IMG/VR virus record: IMGVR_UViG_3300029319_008930
Coordinates: 1-47,842 of that record
Strand: one strand, 5' to 3'
DNA from: a virus
Length of the DNA stretch: 47,842 nt
Below the pieces are notes generated by a model. That model saw only the letters and a program-made list of their open reading frames with translations. It was not told where the DNA came from and did no database searches. Positions 22,901-47,842 of the stretch are shown piece by piece. The translations under genes and the position numbers were made by a program. The stretch's first letter is position 1. Each line of letters starts with the position of its first letter.

Positions 22901-24105
22901 AACCAATACCTTTTGATTTGATGTTCTGTCCTTGCAGTTTTCCAGAGCCTGAATTCATCAAGAGATGCGTTCATATTGCCAGCGCCTTCAAAGTTAGATA
23001 ATCCCGCTGTTACACCTGCTGCCTTTACATATTCAGTTGGGTAAGTTCTATATGCACCAATGTTTGCGTTTATTCCACCCGCCGAAGCCCCTGTCACCTC
23101 TAAAACGGAGGAACCTGTAAGCTTGTTGTCGATAAGTGTTCCGTTATAGAAGGTTTTAATATTTAATTGGTTTCCACTATTTTTTACAGTGATTGCGTAA
23201 TGATTGTAAACATCGTTAGTAAATGCCCCGATTGTTGCAAGGGGCAAAAGCGGCACCCTTTCTGCGCCAGTGGTTCCTGACATATATGTAAAGTGTAGGA
23301 TGTGACCGTCAACAAAATTTGTTGTTGATGTCTCGAATCTGTTTTCAATAAGCATACGCCCATAACTGGCGCTTCCGGGCTGCGTTTCATTAGTTCCGTC
23401 GTTATTCCATGCATCAAAAATTGCTTTTGATGTGGTAAGGTTTCCATCAGATCTAAGCCAAAATTCTATAGTATTACCGGAGGCACCATCTATTGTGATA
23501 TTTTTTGCCCTATTTTTTGCTGTGTCATAAAAATTCGCCTTATGCTCTGGCTTCTTAAAATCGGTACCTTTGTCTAGATCCTGATCATATATGGGTAGAG
23601 ACGCTTGGTTTGGTCCACCTTTTACGCTAATATATTGAGGATTTGTAGCTATAGAAAATGTCTCTAAACCTGTGCCCGGATTGTTTGTAATGGCAGCAGA
23701 GCTGCCACCATTTAATGGCGTTACAGATATGAAACCATTTGTTCTTGGATATTCATTTTCAAAAATGTAATTATCAAAATACGATGAAGATAGAGACCAT
23801 TGAATTTTTTCTTTTTTAGATCCATCGTATGGATAAGTTTTGTAAATTCTCTCAAATGTTGTTCTATAATATTCTTTTGCAGAGCCATATTTTGCAAAAT
23901 TTGCAGGGGTTGAAAAATCGACAGATGGGACAACTCTATTTTTATTTTTTATCTCTTCTCTAACATAATCAGCAGATTCAATATCTGCTGCTACCGTGTC
24001 TAAACTTGATGAAGATACAAGTTTTGATACTTTTGTAGTGCCGTTTCCCTTTTTTCCCCTAAAAAGAGAGCTAATTCTACTATTTTTATCGCCATATCTC
24101 GCCAT
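13963..24105 (-). CDS. Giant baseplate/tail structural protein with LamG-like domains (3380 aa)
   Basis: The longest gene here (10.1 kb). Residues about 205-395 form a LamG/concanavalin-like jelly roll: TIEFWLRSDGN at the start, YNHYAITV in the middle and SLDEFRLWKTARTEHQI at the end, the signature of the LamG_3 type. A second, weaker one lies around 720-932, ending YVGAHRTNF and CRYWADDITSEEL. Such domains bind glycans. About residues 1228-1372 form a beta-rich, Thr/Asn/Gly-rich segment resembling an inserted Ig-like or tube-like module. The C-terminal 400 residues look conserved (RWMVFKVKKRAKNNYAG, YSYNWPYDYFSLVEL). It lies two genes after the gp6-like gene, where T4 places gp7, so a wedge scaffold carrying host-binding insertions is one reading (inference). 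A polyprotein is not suggested: no protease motif is visible. Confidence 0.7.
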   Translation of the reverse strand: MARYGDKNSRISSLFRGKKGNGTTKVSKLVSSSSLDTVAADIESADYVREEIKNKNRVVPSVDFSTPANFAKYGSAKEYYRTTFERIYKTYPYDGSKKEKIQWSLSSSYFDNYIFENEYPRTNGFISVTPLNGGSSAAITNNPGTGLETFSIATNPQYISVKGGPNQASLPIYDQDLDKGTDFKKPEHKANFYDTAKNRAKNITIDGASGNTIEFWLRSDGNLTTSKAIFDAWNNDGTNETQPGSASYGRMLIENRFETSTTNFVDGHILHFTYMSGTTGAERVPLLPLATIGAFTNDVYNHYAITVKNSGNQLNIKTFYNGTLIDNKLTGSSVLEVTGASAGGINANIGAYRTYPTEYVKAAGVTAGLSNFEGAGNMNASLDEFRLWKTARTEHQIKRYWFTQVGAGTNTDESNTDLGFYFKFNEGITGDTNKDQVILDYSGRVSNGLYNNYASTSRSTGSAMVIASAAEREFKDPILYPTHPTVDSYKTEAMRKGEAWDVRNSSYLFNTLPSWIQDEDALKDRNSVLALTQIMASYFDTLHLQIEEMKKIKTIRYLSSSLDTDVKPFPYAYKLLTNSGFVAPEIFADSDVIAALTHADNEREYEKKLYDIKNYIYQNIYNNLAYINKSKGTHKAIRNLIRCFGVDEEVYKVNMYADNAEYTLSNNFVDKSIRKTYADFNDITRNNASVYTYKNTSEANNTGFITGSTDTTTGFDRFLAMTVEAEVILPRKPPLGSPKSDDKYFPDLTSSLFGMHSAKADPGSDAQTVMTWDSNDYANFQVYAVGDTTARDRASSKSVKFVLKSYNSVLPELTSSLFLDQYQDTKWNFAVRVKPFGYPNISGGITGSTGKSYDVEFEGVCTTSDIVVNSFKATGTIANAAGLNFITQKKRLYVGAHRTNFTGSLRERSDALVSSCRYWADDITSEELKFHAIDPQSYGLFTPTRNAYLFSSKGQAGMEVPRIKTLVQNWEFDTVTGSDGSGQFVAKDSSYTINQNEKFQLWDNTTDFTNLLEKNHDGRGDFFVASSNDSTQRDFIPAYKQQLPENINNSNMINVATTDDLTYTKNTLPVTFSFALEKSMYQTISEEMIKFFAASKEASSLENLIGDPVNRYRQDYKGLEKIRNLFFNMVGNTPDLEKYLNYYKWLDNSISEMVKKITPASAKIPDVTNVVESHIFERGGKYQSRFPTLEFKSKDPEDAMRGVNELKYSWNRGHAPIPEASTGKQATGTQVCMGVSPCAVTTPIVFTSNTNAFPITSAAKRNGEHIQINVLAAAANPTNTILVSFVSVGTPRTQINIFITPNDGTNNGSTAVNLTTAELVELINNGSVTGKNVTITDTSSVRTMQTATGGDGTNFANGGEGDSSRATFSGGINLGDNSRNCLWWNKRALRHESGISSGDSATDTDRMQIHSASVQLLNRKFDTPVSFEMQIVYKSKKTADLNKRQVVFTQTPPKSGKTLKFNTSEFSTPLSCKDTEGDDPQFKFKPQFKVEGSIFQGKMVSPLTFYSAAAGSQNTDANGYYLTTQHLQDYYVDTKQIPMQGPFTEQHVGGYQYRHIGLNANNSNTRPEGWYTVVSGSTSGSTYYTVRNPIDISTAYPRAGYSRDHIAKSPLNIKNIKNVTSSQLASSHTTVDEFGALVSLGNYSHDYEIVQIPGRSINNNYFARSSGVATSSHSLLSVKGIFDREIPDRRVNKHVFVNRFSAPGGPETMGAGYLDYESETFSVYNALPYRNLTVRQPLRELLTRHSAFGGYDGVNGSPTGSYHQTQRNGAKRLEISGQPEIGSHSGLGLSLATGTVFDNGFIQHMIPQSDMQYAWITASAINTVFGYAPPDNSNASMASTALQFVSRSQAGIWNDSGTRKFGINDYQVPESQYIAQDFVGLNKAFKAVDTIFHQNLIQYESNTDFAPLAAYLPGSDALILNNGLLKSNGPFGYPSWKQVRQADSQLVREMRRNNRLTLVREVNSATQSTDGTFLKEDELLEYKEPPVSSKYKPLRHQLQLWNHQDPSGMGKDGDEIVIRSSYGNNLAYYTMTNMQGINADPTPIDESTQRAPKVESISKITGFNPSYQRQLYDDLKRVYLNNEQDSVAPGTSPIKKATSITYREVVYPKESYTYLSGSRGRLMFTPASGTNKMVGAQGTSIHGGPLGSQVIYWRDNPTARLRPMGYGFNTITGLPLTGGFKNGQTSKYGAWIGAKNSQLIPVAPVGAFELTSYENVVDMSIWPLDANYPMVDIGPTGSGSYVNDAQTVSTASGIGEGEGSIGLPSTYEGKVRNGELSYNNWIYNLYRVPVQGLADSADSTLSASSTVTASISYEYPNFALSGSDPDQAGMSYTLSHLNLIPDWTANVTSSRNPFFDSYDDYSNDIRRIGKDYTIIPEFRISSHMDYYLKEGFSAPNFEFLETVGANAGKGYLTASATVRNPSPAYSKTAINDDFYRIYTNSDFMKHFEILKEDHQKTIQSPESDDTVAYMPSKIKIKCRGIKKLLPYQGFYPALRSVQLGTMFSSSFGPYLTGNYDVDFIGSADTNDAGEHININWQNQALASLLQPFFAPGILFNSIKSGIACDWPVITGSISSKTPPRGVLEAGPHPGSDGLYGYRAAGLCNFDPDWRMPFEALLAPEKFLPVENENFNLEEGDRPSSAIYHIWPNYSGAPLHQSNKAKRFSPTTAVEDKPWFGSTSNAGYNRPTPNFKWTGQNRPDYHLAMNNFLAETVDFFLEGQTTTTFVSGRQSGFKPFASGTTYFMDVVMSKTPDFKMYEGPDSQFFLEMHNSGNSGASVAAVDLTHSVGARGMHYGPYFSSKDNYEPDMSNHSDRLAEQMGDPGPAPYTPPYFYGTSIARIAFRPHALRDMAEGESSDFTLSEIFSSVQFETEFINLGENSRGVFQNLTKVVDLPRGGSTVVQMPSATGSAAYRNQMNLQSSMNLFNRTGKKRVAYTPKQGADGSMSFKPNALFQGEDEGSQNDVWVIESKFECPTMNYAGHDTSGFGDGSGREREATTGPWRTFGTIPENESGIFLSLKESFPQLENATEAEAAGSTGGNDAVTGRTRRRGPANRSLTNSDREIILKTTGSLLQHCNFEPQTRRVGALASSKEISEAIVAIPINTNGSFVPINKVGFAKQRDNMATDGIALKAGDFGGEIKRDIERTSISDMISKMKKYVIPPHLDFLNNKTTYDKLGPFVMYMFEFTHTLSKSDLSLIWQNMMPDISVTAEKAESVVEHSVLTGDKVDFFGVDSSFFSPANESLIPGKNIFNDKLRWMVFKVKKRAKNNYAGISVTNEASKGFDFDELESWTDNDSAKLNPNGKQAVYSYNWPYDYFSLVELAQLEPAITFNPIKLKDAEVISDTATNIANSSPLTDSSASPQGSGDVGPITFNINKGDD

Positions 24106-35893: not shown

Positions 35894-36574
35894 TCATATT
35901 TCTCCACGATCCCATTTCTTTTTAAATACTCTGTATCTAACTCTCATTTTATTTAAGTTATTTACAACTTGTTTCGTGTTTAAGCCTGTAATTTCTCTAA
36001 TGTAAAAATATATCGCTTTTTTATTATATATTTCTATGTTATCAGGGGAGGAGAGGAGTAATCGAATTGCCTCATATACTTTCTCCTCATTAGGCTTCAT
36101 GGTTATAGTTTTTTCCCAAAGATTTATTTCTTCCCAAAGATTTGACCAAAACTCATGATCTTCTCGCTTACTGTGATATTCGTTTTCAACAGTTATCTTA
36201 GACATGTCTATATTTTTCGGAAGGTCATCTAGCTGGACTTCTCTTTTATTGCTTTGATTGGTCTTTCTTACTTTATGAATAAACCAATTTTTTGTAATAA
36301 CACTAAAGTAGGAAAATGCTTTTGATCCCTTGTTTGGATCGTATTTATCTAAAATTGTTGTTAACCATATTTTACACTCATCTTTTAACACATCAATATT
36401 TGGTAAATTTGTAAACCTGTATGTGTATATAATTTTGTCCACCATCTCACTAAAAGCAGGCTCAATATAATCTATATACAGATCTGTTCTAATTTTAATA
36501 TCATCAGTGTTTGAATACTCTATGATTGCATTCTCATGCACTTTTGTAAAATATAAGTTCTTTTTTTTAGCCAT
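35894..36574 (-). CDS. Late transcription sigma factor, gp55-like
   Basis: A 226-residue sigma-70-related protein resembling T4 gp55, which redirects host RNA polymerase to late promoters. KIWLTTILDKYDPNKGSKAFSYF followed by KNWFIHKVRKTN corresponds to sigma region 2 (core binding and -10 melting). The C-terminal part, with IREITGLNTKQVVNNLNKMRVRYR, is a helix-turn-helix-like segment. It is longer than T4 gp55 (185 residues). The protein ends RVFKKKWDRGEI, a basic tail without an obvious hydrophobic/acidic clamp-binding end. Its position just before the tail genes fits a switch to virion production. The start ATG lies 1 nt after the stop of the membrane-protein gene. Confidence 0.82.
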   Translation of the reverse strand: MAKKKNLYFTKVHENAIIEYSNTDDIKIRTDLYIDYIEPAFSEMVDKIIYTYRFTNLPNIDVLKDECKIWLTTILDKYDPNKGSKAFSYFSVITKNWFIHKVRKTNQSNKREVQLDDLPKNIDMSKITVENEYHSKREDHEFWSNLWEEINLWEKTITMKPNEEKVYEAIRLLLSSPDNIEIYNKKAIYFYIREITGLNTKQVVNNLNKMRVRYRVFKKKWDRGEI

Positions 36575-36575
36575 A

Positions 36576-36884
36576 TCATTCTAATTTTGCTTCTTCGACC
36601 TCATCCACCCTCTCATTTACAATATTGTAAACATCACTAAATTGTTTTACATGCTCTATTATTTGCCTAGAGTGCATAATCAATTGTTTGATGCTGGGCT
36701 CTCCGTAATACATTTCCATCTCGTAGAGTTGTTGCAAGTGGTTTTGATAAGAAGCCAAATCCTCTACAAGGTTTCCCATGTTGTCAGAGATGGGCAATAG
36801 TTTGGATAACATTTTTCTTATATACCACAATAAGAGAGCATTAATAAAGACAGACAAGATTAAAAAAAATATAAGTAAACTCAT
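36576..36884 (-). CDS. Small single-pass membrane protein (102 aa)
   Basis: The N terminus (SLLIFFLILSVFINALLLWYI) is one uncleaved hydrophobic helix of about 20 residues, followed by RKMLSK, so the rest is likely cytoplasmic by the positive-inside rule. Residues 35-102 are helical and probably coiled coil. The ATG overlaps the stop of the zinc-ribbon gene as ATGA, with GGGAG 5 nt upstream. I recognise no family. An accessory lysis, spanin-like or membrane-anchoring role is possible, but no lipobox or holin pattern is evident. Confidence 0.7.
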   Translation of the reverse strand: MSLLIFFLILSVFINALLLWYIRKMLSKLLPISDNMGNLVEDLASYQNHLQQLYEMEMYYGEPSIKQLIMHSRQIIEHVKQFSDVYNIVNERVDEVEEAKLE

Positions 36885-37120
36885 TTATACTCCCGCTTCA
36901 TCTCCTCTTTGTCAGCTTTAATCTGCTCTCTTGCTTCCTCTATATGTTGCCTAACTATATTTCCTGCTTTTTTACTTTTCACATATGTGGGCATTGAGGG
37001 AACTCTGGTCAAGCTGCCCTCGGCATTGCACACTTGACAAACAGTCTCGACACTTTTCATAGAATGAAACGCCTCAAAGTGTTCACCACACGCTTCGCAG
37101 TAATAGCAATAAGTTGGCAT
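36881..37120 (-). CDS. FmdB-type zinc ribbon protein (79 aa)
   Basis: The N terminus MPTYCYYCEACGEHFE followed by a CQVC pair about 20 residues later is the FmdB/CxxC_CxxC putative zinc-ribbon pattern (four Cys binding one zinc). The C-terminal half is a charged helix (EEAREQIKADKEEMKREYK). The start is ATG 37120, one base after the preceding stop and with GAGGAG upstream. A longer frame reaching 37231 exists but overlaps the neighbouring gene and loses the family N terminus. FmdB proteins are annotated as regulators, but their function is poorly known. In this phage it lies just before the sigma factor pair. Confidence 0.85.
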   Translation of the reverse strand: MPTYCYYCEACGEHFEAFHSMKSVETVCQVCNAEGSLTRVPSMPTYVKSKKAGNIVRQHIEEAREQIKADKEEMKREYK

Positions 37121-37121
37121 A

Positions 37122-37325
37122 CTACTCCTCTGTGTCTTCCACTTCTTCAACCCCCATTTTAACCAAAGGTGGGTTTTTGACAAAAAGCTCTGCTGTACCG
37201 CCTTCTTCTTCGGAGGCAGCAACAAACTCAAAACCTTTTAATACCGGCACAATGTCACTTTGTTCTAAAAGGCTTTTCTGAAGAGCCATCATTACGGCTC
37301 CGATTGCTTGGTCTGACATGTTCAT
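37122..37325 (-). CDS. Small acidic hypothetical protein (67 aa)
   Basis: A short protein with a Met-rich helical start (MNMSDQAIGAVMMALQKSLL), a few strands, and an acidic end (VEEVEDTEE). The ATG at 37325 has AGGAG 7 nt upstream, and the gene fits exactly between APS kinase and the zinc ribbon, so it is very likely real. No family recognised. It is the first gene after the sugar/APS-kinase block and may be the first gene of the late unit. Confidence 0.7.
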   Translation of the reverse strand: MNMSDQAIGAVMMALQKSLLEQSDIVPVLKGFEFVAASEEEGGTAELFVKNPPLVKMGVEEVEDTEE

Positions 37326-37340
37326 GTTATTTCTCCTATC

Positions 37341-38072
37341 TTAACTAATTTGATTTATAATAAACTTTTCAAATATTTTAGCAGACTCAGACACTGTTTG
37401 TTTAGAGGTATCTAAAACTAAATCAGGATTTTTTGGTTCTTCAAATGGATCCGAAATACCTGTAAAATTTTCAATTTTTTCAGGATGATTTTCTGGTAAA
37501 CTCGCCCTAGCATACATTCCCTTTGTATCTCTTTCGAATAGTGTGCCTAAATCACATTTTATATATACTGTTTTCATTGTCGGGTCTTTTATTTTGTTTT
37601 CCTCTCTAATATTTTCATATGGATTAATTGCTGCAATTATACTAATAATGTTGTTTCTAGATAACACCTTGCTTACAAAACTTAATCTTCTAATGTTTGC
37701 ATTTCTATCAGGCTTAGTAAATCCAAGATCTTTACAAAGGCTTTCTCTATACTCATCTCCGTCTATAACTTCCACAAGATAACCCTTTTTGATAAGATTT
37801 TTAGATGCTATTTTAGAAATTGTGCTTTTCCCAGCTCCCGACATTCCTGTCATTTGTATGGATATTCCCCTTGTTTTGCCCCAGCTAACACGCGCCCAAA
37901 TCCTTTCGTGAGCCGCGTAAATTAAAAAAGTAACAATAAACTGTGCCAGAGCGATCAAACCTGCGACTTTAAAAGATCCTGTGAAAATGTATCCCAAAAA
38001 AGTAAGACAAAAAAAGCCTATGAGTTTCCAGCAAATTGCTTTTAACAATGTTCTTTTTTTAGTCTCAATCAT
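37341..38072 (-). CDS. DUF2061-APS kinase fusion (membrane-anchored CysC-like kinase)
   Basis: Residues 1-63 are a DUF2061 membrane module: ETKKRTLLKAICWKLIGF followed by two hydrophobic helices (about 13-31 and 36-53) and the HERIWARVSWGK end. Residues 66-243 are a full APS kinase: Walker A TGMSGAGKST (75-84), DGDEYRESLCKDLGFTKPDR, ERDTKGMYARA and FTGISDPFEEP. The reaction is ATP plus adenylylsulfate giving PAPS. At the position usually reading SPF/Y the protein has NPY. No ATP sulfurylase or sulfotransferase is in the window. It sits 15 nt after gmd, at the end of the sugar cassette. A donor of activated sulfate for sulfated glycan is a reasonable inference. Domain identity is firm. Confidence 0.9.
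   Translation of the reverse strand: MIETKKRTLLKAICWKLIGFFCLTFLGYIFTGSFKVAGLIALAQFIVTFLIYAAHERIWARVSWGKTRGISIQMTGMSGAGKSTISKIASKNLIKKGYLVEVIDGDEYRESLCKDLGFTKPDRNANIRRLSFVSKVLSRNNIISIIAAINPYENIREENKIKDPTMKTVYIKCDLGTLFERDTKGMYARASLPENHPEKIENFTGISDPFEEPKNPDLVLDTSKQTVSESAKIFEKFIINQIS
37352..37359 (-). promoter_or_regulatory. Possible late promoter -10 octamer (TATAAATC, 7 of 8)
   Basis: On the minus strand, TATAAATC differs from the T4 late consensus TATAAATA at the last base only. It lies 27 nt upstream of the ATG at 37325, inside the 3' end of the APS-kinase gene, at the junction between the accessory cassette and the sigma/structural genes. AT-rich sequence makes chance matches common, so this is a weak call. 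Confidence 0.22.
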
Positions 38073-38088
38073 AAAATAACTTTTTAAT

Positions 38089-39087
38089 TTATCTTATTTG
38101 TTTTTTAAAATATTCTAAGTCTGCCTCGAACATCATCTTGGCAAGACCCTCAAATGTCACTTCGGGTTCCCAGCCTAATTTTTCTTTTGCTTTTGTAGAA
38201 TCCCCAAGAAGATAAGGCACTTCCTGCGGTCTAAAAAGCCTCGGGTCAATCTCTACATACTTATCTGCGCTTCCAAGACCTGCTTGATCAAAAACTGCAT
38301 CTAAGAATTCTTTTACAGAATGAGTCTCACCTGTTGCAATAACATAATCATCGGCTTCTTCTTGCTGCAACATCATCCACATAAGCTTCACATAGTCACC
38401 TGCAAAACCCCAATCGCGCTTTGCATCAAGATTTCCTAAGAATAATTTATCTTGTAGACCTAGCTTGATTCTTGCTGCTGCCATGGTAATCTTTCTGGTT
38501 ACAAAAGTCTCACCCCTTCGTGGAGACTCGTGGTTAAAAAGAATACCACTACAAGCATATTGACCATATGACATTCTATAGTTTCTTATAAGGTTGTGGG
38601 CGAAAACCTTAGCGCAAGCATACGGAGATGCTGGCATTAGAGTTGATTCCTCATCGAACGGATAACTAGGATTATCTCCAAACATTTCTGAAGAAGACGC
38701 CTGATATATCTTGCACTCTGGCACCAGTTCTTTTGCCGCGTTAAGCAATCTTAATGTTCCCATGGCGATACCATCTACAGTGTGCTCTGACAGATCAAAG
38801 GAAACCCTCACATGGGATTGTGCTGCTAAATTATAGATTTCGTCGGGCTTATATTTGTTGATCAAGGACCACATGCAGCCTGTATCATTGAGATCAAAAT
38901 ATTCTAATATAAAATTTTTATTTGAAAAAAGATGATCGACCCTATCAGTGCAAATAAGCGAGGTTCTCCTCTTTAATCCCACAACCTTGTAGTCTTTTTC
39001 CAGCAATAGTTCAGCAAGATATGAGCCATCTTGACCAGTAATGCCCGTGATAATAGCAACTTTATTTGCTTTTTTTATACCACTCAT
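38089..39087 (-). CDS. gmd: GDP-mannose 4,6-dehydratase
   Basis: Converts GDP-D-mannose to GDP-4-keto-6-deoxymannose, the first step to GDP-fucose, GDP-rhamnose or GDP-perosamine. TGITGQDGSYLAELLLEK is the Rossmann loop. ASSSEMFG and SPYACAK carry the catalytic Ser/Glu and Tyr/Lys. NHESPRRGETFVTRKIT and GNLDAKRDWGFAGDYV are GMD-specific. The 332 residues are close to the usual length (about 345-370). The gene overlaps the end of GDP-fucose synthase by 26 nt, so the two enzymes of one pathway are coupled. All key residues appear intact. Confidence 0.95.
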   Translation of the reverse strand: MSGIKKANKVAIITGITGQDGSYLAELLLEKDYKVVGLKRRTSLICTDRVDHLFSNKNFILEYFDLNDTGCMWSLINKYKPDEIYNLAAQSHVRVSFDLSEHTVDGIAMGTLRLLNAAKELVPECKIYQASSSEMFGDNPSYPFDEESTLMPASPYACAKVFAHNLIRNYRMSYGQYACSGILFNHESPRRGETFVTRKITMAAARIKLGLQDKLFLGNLDAKRDWGFAGDYVKLMWMMLQQEEADDYVIATGETHSVKEFLDAVFDQAGLGSADKYVEIDPRLFRPQEVPYLLGDSTKAKEKLGWEPEVTFEGLAKMMFEADLEYFKKQIR

Positions 39088-39961
39088 AAGTTTTTAAAAC
39101 TCCATTTTCAAATTTAGTAAATTCAAAATCTCCGTATAGCTCTTTGAATTTTTTATTAGATCCATCTTTTCTGTATTGACCGTCTAAACTATTATTAAAC
39201 ACTATTTTAACATCTTTTTTTATATTATTTAAAAACATTTCTATCATTTCTTTTATTGATAAGTTTTGATCGGGAGATATGATTAGCGGGACATCGGTAT
39301 TATGATTTTTTAAGAGAAAAGGAATTATTTTCACCAAGTCATCAACATATAATTGCTGCCTCAGAGGGTTTCCAGAACCCCAAAACTCAACTGTGTCTCC
39401 GTCTTTTGCTTCGTGTATCTTTCTTATCATGGCGGGGACAAAGTGGGAACTTTCTAAATCAAAGTTGTCATTTGGACCATATATATTCGATGGGCAAAAT
39501 GTAGAGTAATTCACTCCGTATTGAAGCCTATAAGCGTTTGTTTGTACAAACAAAGCTCTTTTTGTGTATCCATAAGTAAAGTTTGTCTTAGCCGGTGGTC
39601 CCGACAATATATCCTCCTCTGCAAAGGGATATCTATTAACCACATCAGGGAATGAGCAGGTGCTCAAGCATGATAAAACTCTTACAATACCTGCCTTGTG
39701 AGCCGCACTTAAAACATTAGTATTTATGTATGTATTGATATCATAAAACTCTGCTTGCTTCGAGGAGTTCTCCTTAATTCCACCAACCTTGCTAGCTAGA
39801 TGCAAAATTGCATCCGGCTTTTCTGATGCGAATAATTCGTATACGCTAGAATAATCCCTAAGATCACAATCTTTTGAGGACAAAAACATCCAATTTGGAT
39901 TTTGTTTTTTAAGTCTTGTGCCAACAAATCCAGTGCCACCAGTTACTATAATCTTATTCAT
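39062..39961 (-). CDS. fcl: GDP-L-fucose synthase (GDP-4-keto-6-deoxymannose epimerase/reductase)
   Basis: Takes the Gmd product to GDP-L-fucose with NADPH. VTGGTGFVGTRL is the nucleotide loop, CLSTCSFPD gives the active-site Ser/Cys region and YGYTKRA the Tyr/Lys pair. CPSNIYGPNDNFDLESSHFVPAMI is a GDP-fucose synthase signature. About 299 residues, slightly short of the usual 310-320. The start is ATG 39961, overlapping the stop of the HAD gene; a TTG nine bases earlier is possible. With gmd following, the GDP-fucose branch is complete, provided host GDP-mannose is available. Confidence 0.92.
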   Translation of the reverse strand: MNKIIVTGGTGFVGTRLKKQNPNWMFLSSKDCDLRDYSSVYELFASEKPDAILHLASKVGGIKENSSKQAEFYDINTYINTNVLSAAHKAGIVRVLSCLSTCSFPDVVNRYPFAEEDILSGPPAKTNFTYGYTKRALFVQTNAYRLQYGVNYSTFCPSNIYGPNDNFDLESSHFVPAMIRKIHEAKDGDTVEFWGSGNPLRQQLYVDDLVKIIPFLLKNHNTDVPLIISPDQNLSIKEMIEMFLNNIKKDVKIVFNNSLDGQYRKDGSNKKFKELYGDFEFTKFENGVLKTYEWYKKSK

Positions 39962-40259
39962 TATTTCCAAAAAAAGTTTCAGAATTTATATTCTTATCAT
40001 CAATAAACAAATCATATACGGGTTTTCCGAACTTAAGATCGTTGTATTTTACGCCCCATTCTTCAAATTGTTTTTTTGTAATTTCAGACCAGTCTATTCC
40101 CGTTCCAGTGCCCCTAGCGGTCCAGTATATAATTGTATTTCCACTATCATACAGCTCGTTAATTATACTAATCCTATCTTGCAATGGTATTGCCATGCTA
40201 TAATCTCTACTATCTGGAGATGTGCATATGGTTTCGTCTATATCGACATAATAAATCAA
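39954..40259 (-). CDS. Small HAD-family phosphatase
   Basis: A compact 101-residue HAD enzyme. DIDETICT holds the nucleophile and acid aspartates (motif I), YWTARG is motif II, and the Lys in FGKPVYD with IDDKNI are motifs III and IV. No cap domain fits in this length. Such small HADs are common in capsule and LPS clusters, where they are predicted to remove sugar phosphates. Here it follows the NeuB-like gene by 5 nt, so dephosphorylation of a nonulosonate phosphate or its precursor is a fair inference. The start is TTG at 40259, with GAGGG about 8 nt upstream overlapping the NeuB stop. Confidence 0.8.
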   Translation of the reverse strand: MIYYVDIDETICTSPDSRDYSMAIPLQDRISIINELYDSGNTIIYWTARGTGTGIDWSEITKKQFEEWGVKYNDLKFGKPVYDLFIDDKNINSETFFGNNE

Positions 40260-40264
40260 ATTAA

Positions 40265-41119
40265 TTACCCTCTCAGCTTTTTTCTAATTGCAATTTCACT
40301 TTTTGTTACAGTTTTTTCAGACGATCCTAGAATTTTTCTAATATCCTTAACTCTTTTCTGTAACATGTCCATAGCCATAACCTCTAAACTAGACTTCTGA
40401 TCTGTGCCCCACATATCATGAGACAGTGTAATGTGCCTCTCTACAATAGTCGCACCAAGTGCCACTGCAATAACTGTTGGCTCCAAGTCCTCTTCGTGCC
40501 CAGAATATCCTATTTCACAACCATATCTATCTTTTAAAAATGGTATTAAATTTAAATTGAGTTCGTCCTTTGGCGTTGGATAGCTAGAATTTGTATGCAT
40601 TAAAACAAGGTTTTTATTGTGTTTTAAAACATTATTCACAGCCTCATCCACTTCAGATAATTCGCACATTCCCGTGGACATTATAATGGGAATATTTGAT
40701 TTAGCAGCCTCGGAAACCAATTCTTTATTCGTAGTCATAGCCGATGGTATTTTTAAAAACGGTAAATCATATTGCATTAAAAATTCCAAACTATCTAAAT
40801 CCCAAATAGAGGCTGACCAATCTACGGGCTTTTCAGAGCAATATCTGCTGATATAATCGTATTCTTTTTTGCCAAACTCGACACGATATTTATATTCTAG
40901 ATATGTCATTTTGCCCCATGGGGTTTCTCTCATAACACCCTTTTGATGTTCTGGGACGCACACATCTGGGTTTCTTTTTTGAAACTTAGCACAATCCCAC
41001 GAACATGCAGAAACCGCATCAATAAGCTTCTTTGTTATATCAATGCTGCCGTTATGATTAATACCTATTTCACCAATAAAATAAGTGTCTTTATCTTTTC
41101 TTTCTAAAAAATTTTTCAT
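40265..41119 (-). CDS. NeuB-like nonulosonic acid synthase without C-terminal SAF domain
   Basis: Condenses phosphoenolpyruvate with a hexosamine-derived aldehyde to a sialic-acid-like sugar. The TIM-barrel motifs are present: FIGEIGINHNGS, WDCAKFQKR, FLKIPSAM, MSTGMCEL, MHTNSSYPTP, IGYSGHE and ERHITLSHDMWGTDQ. The protein stops at RKKLRG, residue 284, exactly where NeuB proteins continue into the antifreeze-like (SAF) domain. Full NeuB is about 340-350 residues. The stop is followed in 5 nt by the HAD gene, so no separate SAF gene follows. AGGAATT precedes the ATG. Substrate (sialic, legionaminic, pseudaminic or other) cannot be told. The SAF loss raises the possibility of altered specificity. 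Confidence 0.9.
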   Translation of the reverse strand: MKNFLERKDKDTYFIGEIGINHNGSIDITKKLIDAVSACSWDCAKFQKRNPDVCVPEHQKGVMRETPWGKMTYLEYKYRVEFGKKEYDYISRYCSEKPVDWSASIWDLDSLEFLMQYDLPFLKIPSAMTTNKELVSEAAKSNIPIIMSTGMCELSEVDEAVNNVLKHNKNLVLMHTNSSYPTPKDELNLNLIPFLKDRYGCEIGYSGHEEDLEPTVIAVALGATIVERHITLSHDMWGTDQKSSLEVMAMDMLQKRVKDIRKILGSSEKTVTKSEIAIRKKLRG

Positions 41120-41130
41120 GCTTAGAATTC

Positions 41131-42066
41131 CTATGAATAATTTGCTATTTTATAATACCATTCAAAATTATTTAATTGCTCTTGTATTGTACACAAATCT
41201 TTCTTATTAGTCAAGAAAGATTTAACTTCTTCTAAAAGTCCGGGCTTGAATTTTAAATCTTTTTCTTCTTCATCTAGTTTAACAAAACTAGTCTCTAAAG
41301 ACCCTTTGTTCTGAATTTGCAATTTTTCCAATGGTCTTAAAATCAGTTTCTTATCTGGTAAGTTTATCTCGATGCCCCATCTACCTGCTGATTTCCAATT
41401 TGCGTCGTAACTAAAATGGGTGCCTGATTCTGTGATTCCACAACCATTAAAGGAGCTGGCAGAGGGGTGCCATTCTAATTTATCTTGTGTATACGCGCTT
41501 AATTCTTTTGGTTTGCCAAATAAATAAAACACGGTGTCAGGAACATGTGATGAATTGCATAGAAAAAATCGTGCCAATTCTTCTTTCGTATATGAATCAA
41601 AGTCTATCATATGGGACCACTCAGTAAAAGTGAAATGAACATTGGCATACCCATTGCTGTTGGATATTATTTCTTTGCACTTTTTTACAGACTGGTAAAA
41701 TCTTCTGTTATATGCCACATGCAAACTACAAGATTTTTGCTCCGATTTGAAAATCAAGTTTTTAATTTGATCTTTATTTATCCCTGCTGGCTTTTCTATC
41801 AAAATGTTTTTGACCCCAGCGTCAATTAGTTCATCCGTAACGGAGTAAAGTTGACTTTCGTCAACTGCCACTATGGCATAGTCTGCAACATTTGTTGCAT
41901 TAGATTCTACAAACTTTGTTAACCCATGGGGATAAACTTTTGTGGGGAAACTAGGTTTAGCAGACCTGCCCACAACATTATAGTCTACCCCAAGATGATG
42001 CAATACTTTATAGTAGTCTAAGCCTATGTTTCCCGGTCCTACGAGCCAAACTTTCTTATTTTTCAT
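41131..42066 (-). CDS. Gfo/Idh/MocA-family NAD-dependent sugar oxidoreductase
   Basis: An N-terminal Rossmann fold (VWLVGPGNIGLDYYKVL) and the EKPAGI motif near residue 92 identify the GFO_IDH_MocA family. AYNRRFY is the usual start of the C-terminal domain. The 311 residues are somewhat short for the family (about 330-380). These enzymes oxidise or reduce sugar rings, often on nucleotide sugars. It is embedded between NeuB and a radical SAM gene in the glycan cassette. TTAGGAA overlaps the preceding stop and serves as its ribosome binding site. The substrate is unknown. Confidence 0.85.
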   Translation of the reverse strand: MKNKKVWLVGPGNIGLDYYKVLHHLGVDYNVVGRSAKPSFPTKVYPHGLTKFVESNATNVADYAIVAVDESQLYSVTDELIDAGVKNILIEKPAGINKDQIKNLIFKSEQKSCSLHVAYNRRFYQSVKKCKEIISNSNGYANVHFTFTEWSHMIDFDSYTKEELARFFLCNSSHVPDTVFYLFGKPKELSAYTQDKLEWHPSASSFNGCGITESGTHFSYDANWKSAGRWGIEINLPDKKLILRPLEKLQIQNKGSLETSFVKLDEEEKDLKFKPGLLEEVKSFLTNKKDLCTIQEQLNNFEWYYKIANYS

Positions 42067-42075
42067 ATTGATTTC

Positions 42076-43212
42076 CTAACTTAATCCGCATCTGTCGCAA
42101 GGATTCCACTTGGAGCGTGAACCGGATATATGGTCTTTTCTTAATGCATTATAAGTTTCTCCGGACCATATTTCCTTAATTGTGGAATCATTTAAATTTC
42201 CAACTTTTAAATAGCTTTTATAGTCCACATCGCACGGATTTGATATTCCGTCAAACCATACATACATCCTTTGCCAAAGATACTCACATGGACTTGTTAT
42301 GTCTGGGTGTGTTTCGTTGGCGTAGGTATTCCACCTATTTTCTATATTAACAACCGCCACATTATCAACTAATTTTTGAAAAAATTTAGTGTATTTTTCT
42401 ATACTCTGTTCTTCATCAAAAAATACTCCAGAGGCAGTTGTCATTGTGTTAGAATCAGGGTAATGCTTTTCCCTTATACTGTGAAACATTTTGATATTAT
42501 CAACAACAGTGTCAAATTTTCCCCTGACTCTTATTCTCTCGTATAAATCTTTTCTTTCTGCGTCTATTGAGAATACTAACTCTGTCACATTTGAAGACAA
42601 TATGGCATGACAATGTTCCTCTGTCATTTTTGTAGCGTTTGTATTAATTTTTATTTCAAAAAACTTTCCCTTAGCATAGTCAAGCATTTCGCATATTTGT
42701 TTATGCATTAAAGGTTCGCCTCGGGAAGCTAGAGTAATCGCTCTGGTTCCTCCCGCCACAGCCTGATCTACAACTTTTTTGTAAAGGTCCATTGGCATAA
42801 CGCCCATGTATGGCTTTTTAGTAAAAGTCTTATCAATCTGAAAACACATTACACACCTGAGATTACAAGCAGATACTGGCTCGATCAATAAATAACAAGG
42901 AAATTTAGAAACCTTTCTTTGCTCTGGGTATTTCTTTAGTTTATATCTAAAAACCAAATATTCACACCACTTTTCTAGGTCATTACTTTCTAAAAAGCTT
43001 TTCTCTTGCGGGGAAATATCGAAAGGGAGAGATGAATTTTCATCAAGGCACTTTAAAATTAGATCTGCTACCTCAATATCTTCTTCATCCATATTCTTTT
43101 TGCATAAGTCATATGACTTTTGATAAAGCTCCAAAGATAATTTACTATCCCCAAGCTCATCATTTGTAAAAATTCTACCAAAGTCTGGTATGTTAAAGTT
43201 TTTAATCTTCAT
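42076..43212 (-). CDS. Radical SAM/SPASM-domain enzyme
   Basis: The cluster motif CNLRCVMC (C116, C120, C123) binds the 4Fe-4S that cleaves S-adenosylmethionine. SRGEPLMHKQI and FEIKINTNATKM follow in the usual order. The C terminus has SPCEYLW, SNPCDVDYKSYLKVGN and WNPCDRCG, typical of a SPASM domain holding an auxiliary cluster. An N-terminal extension of about 105 helical residues precedes the core. Radical SAM/SPASM enzymes in polysaccharide clusters are thought to modify sugars (dehydrogenation, epimerisation, deoxygenation), though many of the family modify peptides. Its place between Gfo/Idh and SDR genes favours sugar chemistry (inference). Confidence 0.9.
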   Translation of the reverse strand: MKIKNFNIPDFGRIFTNDELGDSKLSLELYQKSYDLCKKNMDEEDIEVADLILKCLDENSSLPFDISPQEKSFLESNDLEKWCEYLVFRYKLKKYPEQRKVSKFPCYLLIEPVSACNLRCVMCFQIDKTFTKKPYMGVMPMDLYKKVVDQAVAGGTRAITLASRGEPLMHKQICEMLDYAKGKFFEIKINTNATKMTEEHCHAILSSNVTELVFSIDAERKDLYERIRVRGKFDTVVDNIKMFHSIREKHYPDSNTMTTASGVFFDEEQSIEKYTKFFQKLVDNVAVVNIENRWNTYANETHPDITSPCEYLWQRMYVWFDGISNPCDVDYKSYLKVGNLNDSTIKEIWSGETYNALRKDHISGSRSKWNPCDRCGLS

Positions 43213-43234: not shown

Positions 43235-43912
43235 TTACCAAGAGGTCCACCCTCCGTCTATTGTTATTTCGGTGCCAGTAATATAGCTAGATCTTTCAGA
43301 TAGTAGAAAGTTAACTGCACCGTTTATCTCCTCCACATTCATCATCCTACCCATTGGAGTTTGAGAAGAATACTTTTTGATAAAGTCTTCACCCTGATCA
43401 TTGTAAACCCCTCCCGGAACAATGGAGTTGACTCTAATCTTTGGAGCCAAATGAGTTGATAAATGCTTAGAAAGCATTAGAACACCAGCCTTTGAAATAC
43501 TATATCCAATGTGCTTTTCTTCATTGTCATACAAATCTTTTCTAGGAGAAGCGATGCCATATGTTGAAGAAAAATTAACAATGCTGCCATATTCATTGTT
43601 ACGGGCATATTCCCTACATACCGAAAAAAGCGCTGTTAAGTTTATCTTCATATATCTATCAAAGGAATCCAAGCTTATGTTAAACAAGTTTGTTTTCTTT
43701 ATATTTGAATCAATATGGTGATTTAGGGCGAACAGATTAACAAGACCATCGGCTTTATTTTGTAAGAAAAAATTCTTTACAAATTCTTCGTCAGTTAGAT
43801 CATGCCCATTTTGATAATCCAAACAAATACATTCGTAGCCACTTCTTGATAAATCTTGTTTAACAGATGACCCTATAAGACCCTCGCTACCAGTTATAAT
43901 CACCTTTTTCAT
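43235..43912 (-). CDS. Short-chain dehydrogenase/reductase (SDR)
   Basis: A classical 225-residue SDR. TGSEGLIGSSVKQDL is the TGxxxGxG nucleotide loop, IVNFSSTYG supplies the Ser, YSISKAG the Tyr/Lys pair, RVNSIVPGG the NPG-like turn and ITGTEITIDGGWTSW the family's C-terminal signature. NADPH-type keto reduction of a sugar intermediate is likely. The start overlaps the stop of the aminotransferase gene as ATGA, so the two are coupled. SDRs of this type occur beside NeuB and cytidylyltransferase genes in flagellin and LPS glycan loci (compare ptmA in Campylobacter). Confidence 0.9.
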   Translation of the reverse strand: MKKVIITGSEGLIGSSVKQDLSRSGYECICLDYQNGHDLTDEEFVKNFFLQNKADGLVNLFALNHHIDSNIKKTNLFNISLDSFDRYMKINLTALFSVCREYARNNEYGSIVNFSSTYGIASPRKDLYDNEEKHIGYSISKAGVLMLSKHLSTHLAPKIRVNSIVPGGVYNDQGEDFIKKYSSQTPMGRMMNVEEINGAVNFLLSERSSYITGTEITIDGGWTSW

Positions 43913-45117
43913 TTTTCAAATTCCATTATAGTTTTTTTAAGAGCATCGGCTTTTTTTAAAGCTAAATTAGAATCTCTGTAGTTTGTTTTGAATACCATCA
44001 TTTGTGATTGTATTTTTTCTGCAACTGGACATAAGCCTGCACCATATTTTATATTTTCATATATAGATGGCATCCTTTCAACAAAAGCCCTTGATTCCAT
44101 AACTGGTTCCATGTAAGGCACTGACCAAGCGCCATAAATTCCATCGCCGCCATTATTTATATATCTTTTTCTAAAATCTTTCCAACTAACACCAATCTTT
44201 TCCTCCCCCAAGTATCTAACCCCCAAACTCCAATAGCTATTAGTTGAATAGTCGGGCGTATATTGAGGTATTAAATAGGGGCAGCCTTCGATGGCGTTTA
44301 AAAATATTTCTGCCGATTTAACTCTCATATCCACTAAAGAATCAATCCTCTCTAATTGCGCCAAAGCTATAGCAGATAAAAACTCTGACAGTCTATAATT
44401 CCATCCGATGGTGTCGTGGCGCTTATAGTTTGGATTCTGAAAAACATCCAGATCTGCCTTGACTCTACCCTCATCTGCCATCAGATTTTTAAATCCATGA
44501 CCCCCAACTTTTCTTGCTCTCTTGGCATATTCAGCGTTATCTGTAACTAATATACCGCCTTCGCCGCAAGATATGTGCTTTGAGTTTTCGAAACTATAGC
44601 TAGACATAGCTCCGAATGATCCAACCATTTTTCCTTTGTAAGTGCTCATAAAACATTCAGCATTGTCCTCTACAACTGGGATGCCATACTTGTTTGATAT
44701 ATGCATTATTTCATCCATCTCACAAGGCAAGCCATATATGCTAACAATGGATATCGCTTTCGTTTTTGGCGTAATTTTTCTTTCTAAATCTTCTGGGTCT
44801 ATTGTGTATCTATCCTCCAGAACATCGGCGTATACGGGTATGGCATTGGCATGGATTGTAGATGAAGTGTTCATGATTACCGTAAAAGCTGGTGATATCA
44901 CTTCGTCTCCGGGCTTTACTCCAACAGCCTCTAAGGCGGCGTGAAGTGTACTAGTCCCAGAATTAAAAGCTACTCCATGTTTTGTGCCCATTTTATTAGA
45001 AAATTCTTTTTCGAGCTTTCCAGTCCATGAGCCCTCTGTGGCGCTCCAGCTTTCAGAATTTAAAACTTTTTTCATATATTCCAATTCGTTTCCCAAAAAT
45101 TTACTAGGGTTTTTCAT
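43909..45117 (-). CDS. DegT/DnrJ/EryC1/StrS sugar aminotransferase
   Basis: A PLP-dependent aminotransferase acting on nucleotide-linked keto sugars. FNSGTSTLHAALEAVGVKPG binds the phosphate, VVEDNAE holds the pyridine Asp (about residue 151) and SFENSKHISCGEGG has the Schiff-base Lys (about residue 180). GWNYRLSEFLSAIALAQLER is the family subunit motif. About 402 residues, a normal length. I place the start at ATG 45117, with AAGGA 11 nt upstream. An ATG at 45129 has that site right against it and is less likely. It overlaps the SpsF-like gene. A Lys at the PLP position argues for amination rather than dehydration. Confidence 0.93.
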   Translation of the reverse strand: MKNPSKFLGNELEYMKKVLNSESWSATEGSWTGKLEKEFSNKMGTKHGVAFNSGTSTLHAALEAVGVKPGDEVISPAFTVIMNTSSTIHANAIPVYADVLEDRYTIDPEDLERKITPKTKAISIVSIYGLPCEMDEIMHISNKYGIPVVEDNAECFMSTYKGKMVGSFGAMSSYSFENSKHISCGEGGILVTDNAEYAKRARKVGGHGFKNLMADEGRVKADLDVFQNPNYKRHDTIGWNYRLSEFLSAIALAQLERIDSLVDMRVKSAEIFLNAIEGCPYLIPQYTPDYSTNSYWSLGVRYLGEEKIGVSWKDFRKRYINNGGDGIYGAWSVPYMEPVMESRAFVERMPSIYENIKYGAGLCPVAEKIQSQMMVFKTNYRDSNLALKKADALKKTIMEFEK

Positions 45118-45883
45118 TGGCTGCACCATCCTTTAATATTAGTTTTGTTTTATTAACTTGATTTTCTTTCCACATATTTTCTAAAAAATAATTTATTTCT
45201 ATCACATTTTTGTTGTCATCTAAATAATCAAATAATTCTTCACTTGTGAATTCATTGCCCCCAAAATATTCTATAACTCTTTTGAAAAATTCAAAGTCTT
45301 CTTGATAGTCAAGTGTCATTCTTATATCCTTTCTTAAAAATATTTTTGGTATGTTTTCAAGATCTTCAACATTAAAAAGACCAGTTTCTGTAAAATATAC
45401 CCACATCATCTCAGTATCAGTGGTGTCTTTGATATCACACACCTTATAGAGTGCTTCAGACTTTATGCCATATGTAAAAGAACCACAGACGACATCATCT
45501 GATTTTATAAAGTCAACACTACTCTGACTTTTTTCATACTGACAAAAAGCCATATCCATCAATTCTGGATCACAAAACAAATCATCTCCATCGGCAGTTA
45601 CAAAAAAATCAATGTTATATTTTAAACAAGCCCCCCTCCATCTATCAAGCTTGTCTTGGACACTTCCCCTGTAAAATTCGATGCCATTGTCACTAGCTAT
45701 TTTACACAGATTATCATCTTCTGTCAATTCGGTTGTGCATAAAACAACAACATCAGCCAATTTACTTTTTTTTGCTTGATCAATAACATATTCTATAGAG
45801 TATCTGTCTAGTATTTTTTTATAACACTTCTTCTGTAACCTAGATGAATCGCTCCTAACTGTTATTATAATCCCCTTATTCAT
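45104..45883 (-). CDS. SpsF-like cytidylyltransferase (CMP-sugar synthetase family)
   Basis: The N terminus GIIITVRSDSSRLQKKCYKKI matches the nucleotide-binding start of the SpsF/KdsB/NeuA fold (usually QARxxSSRLPxK). FVTADGDDLFCDPELMD carries the metal-binding aspartates. These enzymes activate a sugar acid with CTP. Next to a NeuB-like synthase, a CMP-nonulosonate synthetase is the natural inference. 259 residues is normal. The ATG at 45883 has AGAGG 7 nt upstream. SpsF proteins are often of unknown exact substrate, so only the family is firm. Confidence 0.85.
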   Translation of the reverse strand: MNKGIIITVRSDSSRLQKKCYKKILDRYSIEYVIDQAKKSKLADVVVLCTTELTEDDNLCKIASDNGIEFYRGSVQDKLDRWRGACLKYNIDFFVTADGDDLFCDPELMDMAFCQYEKSQSSVDFIKSDDVVCGSFTYGIKSEALYKVCDIKDTTDTEMMWVYFTETGLFNVEDLENIPKIFLRKDIRMTLDYQEDFEFFKRVIEYFGGNEFTSEELFDYLDDNKNVIEINYFLENMWKENQVNKTKLILKDGAANEKP

Positions 45884-45894
45884 GCCATAACCTC

Positions 45895-46710
45895 TTACGA
45901 TAATGTCTCAGGTAATTTATTTGACCTATATGACATATTGTTTATTTTTATATTATTTTTATTAGCAATAAAACAAAGATATTTTAAATCAGCCATAATT
46001 TGCTTTCTCATTGCAGGATTGTCAAGAGCTGCTGATCCGTGTATAGACTTGTCAGTTTTGACTCTGCTGTCGGTAAAGCCAGCATGAGTTGATCCGTATG
46101 TTTCCAATGCTTGATTGTGTGACAAATCAAACCCAGTAACATTTATTGGGTTGCAGCCCATCCACAAAGCATAGGCTATCATGTGATTGGTAATAGTATT
46201 ACAGTGAGAATAAGCTTTCTTGATGCCATATTTTTGTGCTAGCGCTATTTGAAATATTTTTTGTTCCCACATCCAAGGATAAACCAATTTAGTTTTTGAC
46301 ATTTTTAATAACTTTACAAATTCTTTTCTAATGGGAATTGTAACAATAGACTTTATATTTTTCTTCATACAGAATTGAAAAGGGTCCTTAAGCTCATCAT
46401 ATGAATTAGCTGCACACCAATAGTCTGGTTTCATATCTTTGTCAAAGAAATCAGGCACCATGTGAAAATGATTGCATGTAAACTTAATATCATCGCGATG
46501 CGAAGCCTGATTGGTCTCGAAGAGGCTCGGTCCTAATCCCATAATGAGGGCTGGCTCATTGTGGTATTTATTATTAAGGCTCTGTAGCTTTTCGTATCCC
46601 TCCAGCATATGCTGCTTGAAGAAGTTCTTATCTTCTAGATTATCTATTTGTGCATCTTCAAGATAAGTGGTATTATATTGATTTTTGATTATTTCTAACG
46701 GATCTACCAA
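45895..46710 (-). CDS. DUF115-like glycan-associated protein (possible nonulosonate/phospho-sugar transferase)
   Basis: About 271 residues. PALIMGLGPSLFETN resembles the GxGPSL nucleotide-binding loop of DUF115 proteins, and NPINVTGFDLSHNQ resembles their conserved GxDLS segment, also seen in motility accessory factor (Maf) glycosyltransferases that add nonulosonic acids to flagellin. YGIKKAYSHCNTITNHMIAYAL lies between. No signal peptide or membrane helix. The start is inferred as TTG 46710 because GGAG lies 5 nt upstream; a TTG at 46725 lacks one. It sits between RmlB-like and SpsF-like genes. A transferase using CMP-nonulosonate is attractive, but the family call is only moderate. Confidence 0.6.
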   Translation of the reverse strand: MVDPLEIIKNQYNTTYLEDAQIDNLEDKNFFKQHMLEGYEKLQSLNNKYHNEPALIMGLGPSLFETNQASHRDDIKFTCNHFHMVPDFFDKDMKPDYWCAANSYDELKDPFQFCMKKNIKSIVTIPIRKEFVKLLKMSKTKLVYPWMWEQKIFQIALAQKYGIKKAYSHCNTITNHMIAYALWMGCNPINVTGFDLSHNQALETYGSTHAGFTDSRVKTDKSIHGSAALDNPAMRKQIMADLKYLCFIANKNNIKINNMSYRSNKLPETLS

Positions 46711-46718
46711 CTGGTCTC

Positions 46719-47669
46719 CTACCAAATGAATTTTGATTTATAATATTGAACTATGTGTTTTATTTCTTCATTAAACTTCTTTTTTGTAAACCAGCCCAAA
46801 GATTGCAATTTGGTATCGTCTACAGAATATCTTACATCTTGTCCCTGCCTAGAATACGAAAAGTCTACATATTTTTCTAGGTCGTCTACACTGTGCCCAA
46901 AGCATTCAATAATTTTTTTGACAGTATCAATGTTTTTTTGCTCTTCGTGCCCTGAAATGTTATAAATCTCGTTTGTTTTCCCGCTCTCAACAATTTTTAC
47001 GATTGCTTCGGCTGTGTCGTCAGCATGTAACCAGCACCTATAAGGCTCACCATCATTATGCAAACAGGTTTTTCTGCCACGATTCAGGTTTTTAATAGTC
47101 AAAGGAATTAGTTTTTCTGGATATTGACCAATTCCGTAGTTGTTTGCTGGTCTGACAATCACATATTCTAAATCATATGTTCTTGCCCAAGCCAAAACAA
47201 GCATGTCTGCTGCCGCTTTAGAGGCAGAATAAGGATTGCTAGGCTTAAGCAGGTCTTCTTCTTTGTGGTCTCCACTTACAATGTCACCGTAGACCTCATC
47301 TGTGCTAAAATGTAAGAAAATTGGTCTTTCACCAACATTTTTTTGCTTATTTCTTACTAATTCTAACAAATTTTTAGTCCCTAAAACATTAGTTTCAAGG
47401 AATTTGTCACTACTAACAATACTATTTGCAACATGAGACTCTGCTGCTGTGTTGATTACATAATCACAGTCATACAGATGGTCCAAATCTTTAATATCAG
47501 CCTTCTCAAACCTAAAATTTGGGTGAGTTGAGAACTCTTCAATCAAATCTGTGTTGGCTGCATAGGTGCATTTGTCAATTCCATAGACCATCCACCCTTT
47601 TTCAAGGCATTTTCTAGTTACATAGGAGCCAATAAAGCCCAAACAGCCTGTCACATATACAATTTTCAT
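46719..47669 (-). CDS. NDP-glucose 4,6-dehydratase, RmlB-like
   Basis: An extended SDR that makes the 4-keto-6-deoxy sugar from an NDP-hexose. VTGCLGFIGSYVTRKCLEKG binds NAD, NTAAESHVANSI and FSTDEVYGD hold the Thr/Asp/Glu catalytic set, and NPYSASKAAAD has Tyr/Lys. RCWLHADDTAEAI and RQGQDVRYSVDDTKLQSLGW are typical RmlB C-terminal motifs. 316 residues is a little short of RmlB (about 350). The nucleotide could be dTDP or CDP (RfbG). The ATG at 47669 overlaps the preceding stop as ATGA with GAGG 7 nt upstream. Confidence 0.88.
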   Translation of the reverse strand: MKIVYVTGCLGFIGSYVTRKCLEKGWMVYGIDKCTYAANTDLIEEFSTHPNFRFEKADIKDLDHLYDCDYVINTAAESHVANSIVSSDKFLETNVLGTKNLLELVRNKQKNVGERPIFLHFSTDEVYGDIVSGDHKEEDLLKPSNPYSASKAAADMLVLAWARTYDLEYVIVRPANNYGIGQYPEKLIPLTIKNLNRGRKTCLHNDGEPYRCWLHADDTAEAIVKIVESGKTNEIYNISGHEEQKNIDTVKKIIECFGHSVDDLEKYVDFSYSRQGQDVRYSVDDTKLQSLGWFTKKKFNEEIKHIVQYYKSKFIW

Positions 47670-47842
47670 GCCTTATCCTCAAAGAATTTATCGACAACTT
47701 CTTTAATATAAGCGATTTTTTGGTCATTAATTCCAATAAAAGTGCCCAAAAAGAACGAATTGAATGTCGCTTTATGTGCATTTGGGAACTGTTCTTGAAG
47801 ATTATCATACCCTTTTGCAATGTGCTGGTAGCCCGGATGATA
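47666..47842 (-). CDS. DegT-fold PLP enzyme, RfbH-like C terminus (partial, runs off right edge)
   Basis: An open frame of 58 codons enters from the right edge and ends in TGA at 47666-47668, overlapping the RmlB-like start. The reading FNSFFLGTFIGINDQKIAYI, then EVVDKFFEDKA, resembles the end of RfbH/NDP-hexose 3-dehydratase-type DegT proteins (family pattern F-iGxxxG, then a helix). A second frame through 47614-47820 on the same strand reads into the RmlB gene and lacks this pattern. Beside an NDP-hexose 4,6-dehydratase, an enzyme acting at C3 or C4 of the keto sugar is likely. The catalytic part lies outside the window. Confidence 0.65.
   Translation of the reverse strand, partial: YHPGYQHIAKGYDNLQEQFPNAHKATFNSFFLGTFIGINDQKIAYIKEVVDKFFEDKA

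Follow-up and report, generated by a model that had tools for sequence, protein, structure and literature searches.

The phage sequence analysed here, a whole virus record of 47,842 bases that is itself a metagenomic fragment (the window), encodes a protein joining a DUF2061 membrane module to a CysC-type kinase, and this protein is likely a membrane-tethered APS kinase that makes PAPS for sulfating a glycan built by the same gene island. The open reading frame lies on the minus strand (38072..37341), starts with ATG, contains no internal stop codons and is organized as follows.

37341..38072, minus strand: 243-aa DUF2061-CysC fusion, a predicted APS kinase with a membrane anchor (profiles, model, fold match)
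37893..38048, minus strand: two-helix membrane module matching DUF2061 (PF09834), residues 9-60 (Pfam, AF2 model, hydropathy)
37410..37871, minus strand: APS kinase domain (PF01583), residues 68-221 (Pfam, motifs)

Both domains were well above their Pfam cut-offs, with 49.6 bits against 23.1 for PF09834 over residues 9-60 and 144.5 bits against 21.1 for PF01583 over residues 68-221. The kinase part also passed the NCBIfam equivalog domain TIGR00455 apsK (166.5 bits, cut-off 138.7), the protein staying below the cut-offs of the subfamilies NF002059 and NF003013. An AlphaFold2 model with a mean pLDDT of 82.7 contained two helices (residues 5-31 and 34-61) followed by a kinase fold, and all top Foldseek matches of the model were APS kinases, the best being 5cb8 (TMt 0.87, 43% identity), a crystal structure solved with APS. 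The kinase carries the motifs GMSGAGKST (P-loop), DGDEYR, LGF, DRNANIRR, INPY, RDTKGMYARA and NFTGISDPFE, and comparison with 5cb6/5cb8 and E. coli CysC showed that the P-loop, DGD plus the conserved Arg, LGF, DRxxNIRR, KGxY and NFTG are retained. The first-pass annotation had described a two-helix module fused in frame to an intact APS kinase, naming no strand, a description borne out by the Pfam and TIGR00455 matches, the AF2 model and the motifs; loss of key APS-binding residues was looked for, and the key residues are kept.

Hydropathy analysis placed two hydrophobic helices in the N-terminal module (the best-scoring 19-residue windows span 12-30 and 36-54). Basic residues lie ahead of the first helix and after the second, on the same side of the hairpin, suggesting an N-in/C-in arrangement in which both termini and the kinase would be cytosolic. 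The literature offers only passing mentions of DUF2061, as a membrane protein of unknown function. A stand-alone DUF2061-like gene of 73 aa was also seen in a glycan island of another fragment that contains no kinase (L089:301-522).

The nearest relative of the fusion, in the phage record L001, is 71% identical, and the two reading frames differ with a dN of 0.21 and a dS of about 2.5 and share 78/88/46% identity at the three codon positions, a pattern that indicates purifying selection on the fusion. Of the 51 phage loci counted that carry CysC, 34 had the same fusion with an identical junction (26 of 39 once dereplicated), and about 30 other phage contigs share it; this recurrence, together with the codon-position pattern, rules out a chance fusion, a frameshift or an assembly artefact. 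Among the INPHARED isolate phages, only five remote partial matches were found (32-38% identity), none of them a fusion, leaving no cultured example of a DUF2061-CysC phage, and the phage sample consists of metagenomic fragments only. Naming a host from the baseplate wedge protein was attempted and abandoned, as its nearest matches, at 36% in a Microcystis phage and 33% in Flavobacterium phages, were too distant.

A sugar-nucleotide island that continues past the end of the record at 47842, 9.8 kb upstream of the kinase, has the fusion gene as its final member. Next to the fusion gene, in the same direction, comes a conserved block made up of a 67-aa gene, an FmdB-like zinc ribbon, a late-sigma-like gene and tail genes.

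38089..39087, minus strand: GDP-mannose 4,6-dehydratase (gmd), with 16 bp between it and the fusion gene downstream (TIGR01472, 442.7 bits, over cut-off)
39062..39970, minus strand: GDP-L-fucose synthase-like NDP-sugar epimerase/reductase (Fcl-like; NF047922, 199.8 bits, below the cut-off of 500)
39954..40259, minus strand: 101-aa HAD-phosphatase-like protein, cluster c22, recurring in related islands (family assigned by eye only)
40265..41119, minus strand: NeuB-family nonulosonate synthase (Pfam/NCBIfam)
41131..42066, minus strand: Gfo/Idh/MocA-type oxidoreductase (Pfam)
42076..43212, minus strand: radical SAM/SPASM protein, no clear equivalog (Pfam/NCBIfam)
43235..43912, minus strand: short-chain dehydrogenase (Pfam)
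43909..45129, minus strand: DegT/DnrJ/EryC1 aminotransferase (Pfam/NCBIfam)
45104..45883, minus strand: CTP_transf_3 cytidylyltransferase-like protein (Pfam/NCBIfam)
45895..46725, minus strand: MptE-like (PF01973) protein
46719..47669, minus strand: NDP-sugar epimerase/dehydratase, after which the island leaves the record at 47842
37122..37325, minus strand: conserved core gene of 67 aa (c5), immediately following the fusion gene
36881..37120, minus strand: FmdB-like zinc-ribbon core gene (c6), from MPTYCYY
35894..36574, minus strand: late sigma factor-like core gene (c2), anchor of the control set

The GDP-fucose genes proposed earlier to precede the fusion are thus in place, gmd firmly and the Fcl-like gene with a sub-threshold equivalog score. 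The tail region of the window also holds a single 3380-aa open reading frame (13963-24105). In 40 loci CysC occupied this same slot, mostly at a distance of 0.7-3 kb from the sigma-like gene, and this position stayed constant while the remainder of the island varied between phages. All phage DUF2061-CysC fusions examined sit in sugar-nucleotide/glycosyltransferase islands. Among these, none was a fusion in a phage devoid of glycan genes, and the one visible exception to island placement is unfused: in L020 (4786-5942) an adenylyltransferase-like HxGH gene, CysC and a stand-alone 67-aa DUF2061 are three adjacent genes among replication genes, with no visible glycan island around the trio.

The distribution of the gene is patchy, 77 of 80 sampled loci of the phage lineage lacking CysC locally, as would be expected of a host gene acquired by chance with a glycan island and now selectively inert or decaying. 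We consider this very improbable, given the purifying selection, the motifs intact over about 40 distinct phage sequences and the constant position beside core genes. In addition, an IQ-TREE phylogeny of 87 kinase domains, in which the canonical sample comprised Bacteroidota and E. coli enzymes, placed the phage kinases in clades of their own rather than as scattered recent captures, the window kinase grouping with that of L001 (94/84) among the DUF2061-fused phage enzymes.

The first-pass annotation had proposed looking for a sulfotransferase in the rest of the genome. That search came back empty: the window, which ends inside the island, contains no hidden sulfotransferase, PF13469, PF00685 and PF03567 all being negative over 47.8 kb, and the ATP sulfurylase and CysD/CysH families are absent from it as well. 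The related phages gave a different picture. In a first scan of the 24 other CysC-bearing phage records, PF13469 was over cut-off in eight and PF03567 in eight others (16/24 for the two Pfam families), and PF00685 added two more records with a sulfotransferase. As controls we used 50 records of the same phage lineage, collected through the late-sigma-like gene, with at least 8 kb upstream of it and no CysC at the locus; with CysC absence judged at the locus and not across whole records, PF03567 was over cut-off in three of the 50 and PF13469 in none. Counted by dereplicated island, a sulfotransferase was present in 20 of 25 islands with CysC versus 4 of 46 without it (Fisher p about 2e-9), and among islands with an NDP-sugar epimerase only, in 15/21 versus 4/42 (p about 1e-6). 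Because our Python sulfotransferase profile drew its seeds largely from loci with CysC, the counts free of this bias are those made with Pfam. In L001, a Sulfotransfer_2 protein (E 1.6e-31) is encoded by a gene ending 4 bp before the fusion gene. Some CysC-bearing islands (L010, L127, L141, L142, L152 and L153) showed no sulfotransferase within reach, and the frequent neighbour c8 was rejected as a candidate since its sequence reads as a nucleotide-sugar dehydrogenase.

Bacterial relatives provide parallels. In the Bacteroidota loci L037 and L040, a fusion of reversed domain order, CysC-DUF2061, is followed by GMD and fucose synthase genes and then by a sulfotransferase, which in L037 comes directly after fucose synthase, and in both loci the fusion gene is divergent from cysD-cysN. 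This layout joins the DUF2061 and CysC domains, GMD and Fcl of the window to ATP sulfurylase and sulfotransferase. L039 likewise encodes a CysC-DUF2061 fusion with a sulfotransferase nearby, and in L034, L036, L038, L041, L046 and L047 a sulfotransferase gene abuts or overlaps the CysC gene.

Phage cysC has been read as a gene of assimilatory sulfate reduction (PMC10914622), and on that published reading of phage cysC and cysH the kinase would be an auxiliary metabolic gene that, during infection, raises the amount of host PAPS available to be reduced to sulfide and cysteine. As both uses have PAPS in common, some spill-over is possible. However, PF01507 (CysD/CysH) was over cut-off in none of the 25 phage records, all of them fragments, and the sulfotransferase enrichment, the placement in glycan islands and a kinase clade apart from E. 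coli-type CysC also make assimilation an unlikely role. The sulfotransferase enrichment, the lack of cysH/cysD in these 25 records and the bacterial operon layout together favour use of PAPS for a sulfated glycan. Of the two fates that the first-pass annotation had offered, sulfation of a surface glycan is therefore well supported by comparison, and a change in host sulfur flow finds no cysH or cysD to go with it.

The comparison with bacterial enzymes suggested earlier was made in the same IQ-TREE phylogeny, and it separated the phage kinases and their bacterial relatives, which we call the DGDEYR clade, from canonical CysC with 100/100 support. The clade is common to phages, Bacteroidota and Acidobacteriota, 21 enzymes of the two bacterial phyla forming one clade that adjoins the unfused phage enzymes. 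All phage members and bacterial relatives read DGDEYR (DGDYYR in one) and INPY or INPF, whereas E. coli CysC and 26 Bacteroidota enzymes read DGD[NVIQ]xR, and ISPx where that motif was read. Most members of the clade also contain a 5-6-residue insertion near the substrate lid, reading ALLPDGHPEKI. The ISP serine of E. coli-type CysC is thus absent, Asn taking its place throughout the clade. Not every APS kinase is known to require this serine, and we therefore take its replacement as a subfamily mark rather than as a defining feature.

The Asn and the lid insertion mean that the substrate could have shifted, the kinase phosphorylating another nucleotide-activated group. There is a precedent in Campylobacter Cj1415, which phosphorylates cytidine diphosphoramidate in capsule decoration, and the glycan-island setting would suit such a role; no phosphoramidate pathway genes are recognisable among the Pfam/NCBIfam names of the window island genes. 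Sister genes adjoining cysD/cysN and sulfotransferases nevertheless point to APS and PAPS, the APS-contact motifs match those of 5cb8 and TIGR00455 was passed, which together render a shifted substrate quite unlikely.

Beside the kinase, many CysC-bearing phages encode a 132-aa member of the HxGH nucleotidyltransferase superfamily (L013:9604-10002; also L002, L005, L009-L011, L014, L015, L017, L019-L024, L145, L149-L156 and L160-L162). These small neighbours, cluster c0, were at one stage considered split DUF2061 genes, an idea rejected once they proved to be HxGH nucleotidyltransferases. All 32 HxGH genes lay in CysC-bearing loci or a CysC fragment, and none occurred in 77 lineage loci without CysC. 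PF01747 (ATP sulfurylase) was over cut-off in none of the 25 phage records. The model of the HxGH protein resembles PPAT and NMNAT, with ATP sulfurylases lower in the list, and its nearest NCBIfam family is archaeal NMN adenylyltransferase, below cut-off.

CysC-HxGH fusions were also found in four Acidobacteriota genomes (L026:7998-8930, L033, L035 and L045), and CysD was missing from exactly these four of 22 genomes, a match whose chance is 1 in 7,315 if genomes are independent, and which is confounded by phylum and MAG incompleteness; only one of the four has a Sat-type ATP sulfurylase. On the haloarchaeal plasmids L196, L197 and L198 (Natrinema, Halostagnicola and Haloprofundus), a CysC-HxGH fusion annotated only as cysC shares a small cassette with genes for a sulfotransferase and a YqcI/YcgG protein. 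The phage family phrog_10255 ('kinase'; Clavibacter phage 33, L199:3599-4336) is matched in different halves by the window kinase and the HxGH protein, so kinase-nucleotidyltransferase fusions may exist in isolated Casjensviridae phages too.

We tentatively suggest that the kinase belongs to a sulfate-activation module that is widespread and largely undescribed, and in which the HxGH partner of many relatives, of NMNAT/PPAT fold, possibly acts as a miniature ATP sulfurylase, which is a good hypothesis and not a result. If so, phages encoding a sulfotransferase besides the kinase and the HxGH protein would possess the whole route from sulfate to sulfoglycan, and the window phage, with no HxGH gene within the fragment, would represent its kinase arm with a membrane anchor. 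The absence of ATP sulfurylase from the 47.8-kb record agrees with what had been noted nearby; the conclusion drawn from it, that the kinase relies on host APS, fits the window and is less secure for the many relatives whose HxGH adenylyltransferase might make APS.

Taking these observations together, we infer from sequence a pathway in which the DUF2061 hairpin would hold the kinase at the cytoplasmic membrane, on its inner face, and may bring PAPS to the place of glycan assembly as the first-pass annotation had proposed, APS from host ATP sulfurylase would be converted there to PAPS by its catalytic activity, and sulfation would be the fate of that PAPS. The sulfotransferase using it is phage-encoded in most relatives, and here would probably lie past the fragment end or be supplied by the host. 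The acceptor would be a glycan for which the same island could make the sugars, namely GDP-fucose and a nonulosonate-like one, and it may be borne by the host surface or by the virion. Sulfation of cell-surface or virion glycans by phages could change receptors, block superinfection or allow escape from degradation. Viral ecology counts phage cysC as a driver of assimilatory sulfur cycling; the link made here is that a clade of phage APS kinases, often with a membrane anchor, co-occurs with sulfotransferases in islands for sugar synthesis. Phage 'cysC' of the DGDEYR kind probably serves surface-sugar sulfation rather than sulfur metabolism, in which case some of the sulfur cycling that has been attributed to viruses on the basis of cysC would need re-reading.

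Compared with known systems, the phage fusion shares with canonical CysC (E. coli b2750; TIGR00455/PF01583) the fold, P-loop, DGD, NIRR and FTG motifs and the expected APS-to-PAPS reaction, and differs in its separate clade (100/100), DGDEYR in place of DGDN[VI]R, INPY in place of ISPx, the 5-6-residue lid insertion, the N-terminal membrane hairpin and a glycan island without cysD/cysN/cysH. The Bacteroidota CysC-DUF2061 proteins (L037, L039 and L040) have the same two domains, kinase clade and GMD/fucose synthase/sulfotransferase setting; their DUF2061 is C-terminal with cysD/cysN adjacent, whereas that of the phage is N-terminal with no ATP sulfurylase. The ATP sulfurylase partner of a bifunctional PAPS synthase has no counterpart in the window (no PF01747, PF01507 or HxGH gene). 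The phage cysC auxiliary metabolic genes described previously (PMC10914622) are also APS kinase genes, but the DGDEYR clade co-occurs with sulfotransferases, not with cysH. Finally, phage sulfotransferases have been reported in OM43 phages and S-SRM01, where their function was called unclear (PMC10580990), and a neighbour in L001 matches phrog_3347 'Galactose-3-O-sulfotransferase' at 1.4e-21; in the present relatives, such sulfotransferases are tied to a phage-encoded kinase predicted to make PAPS.
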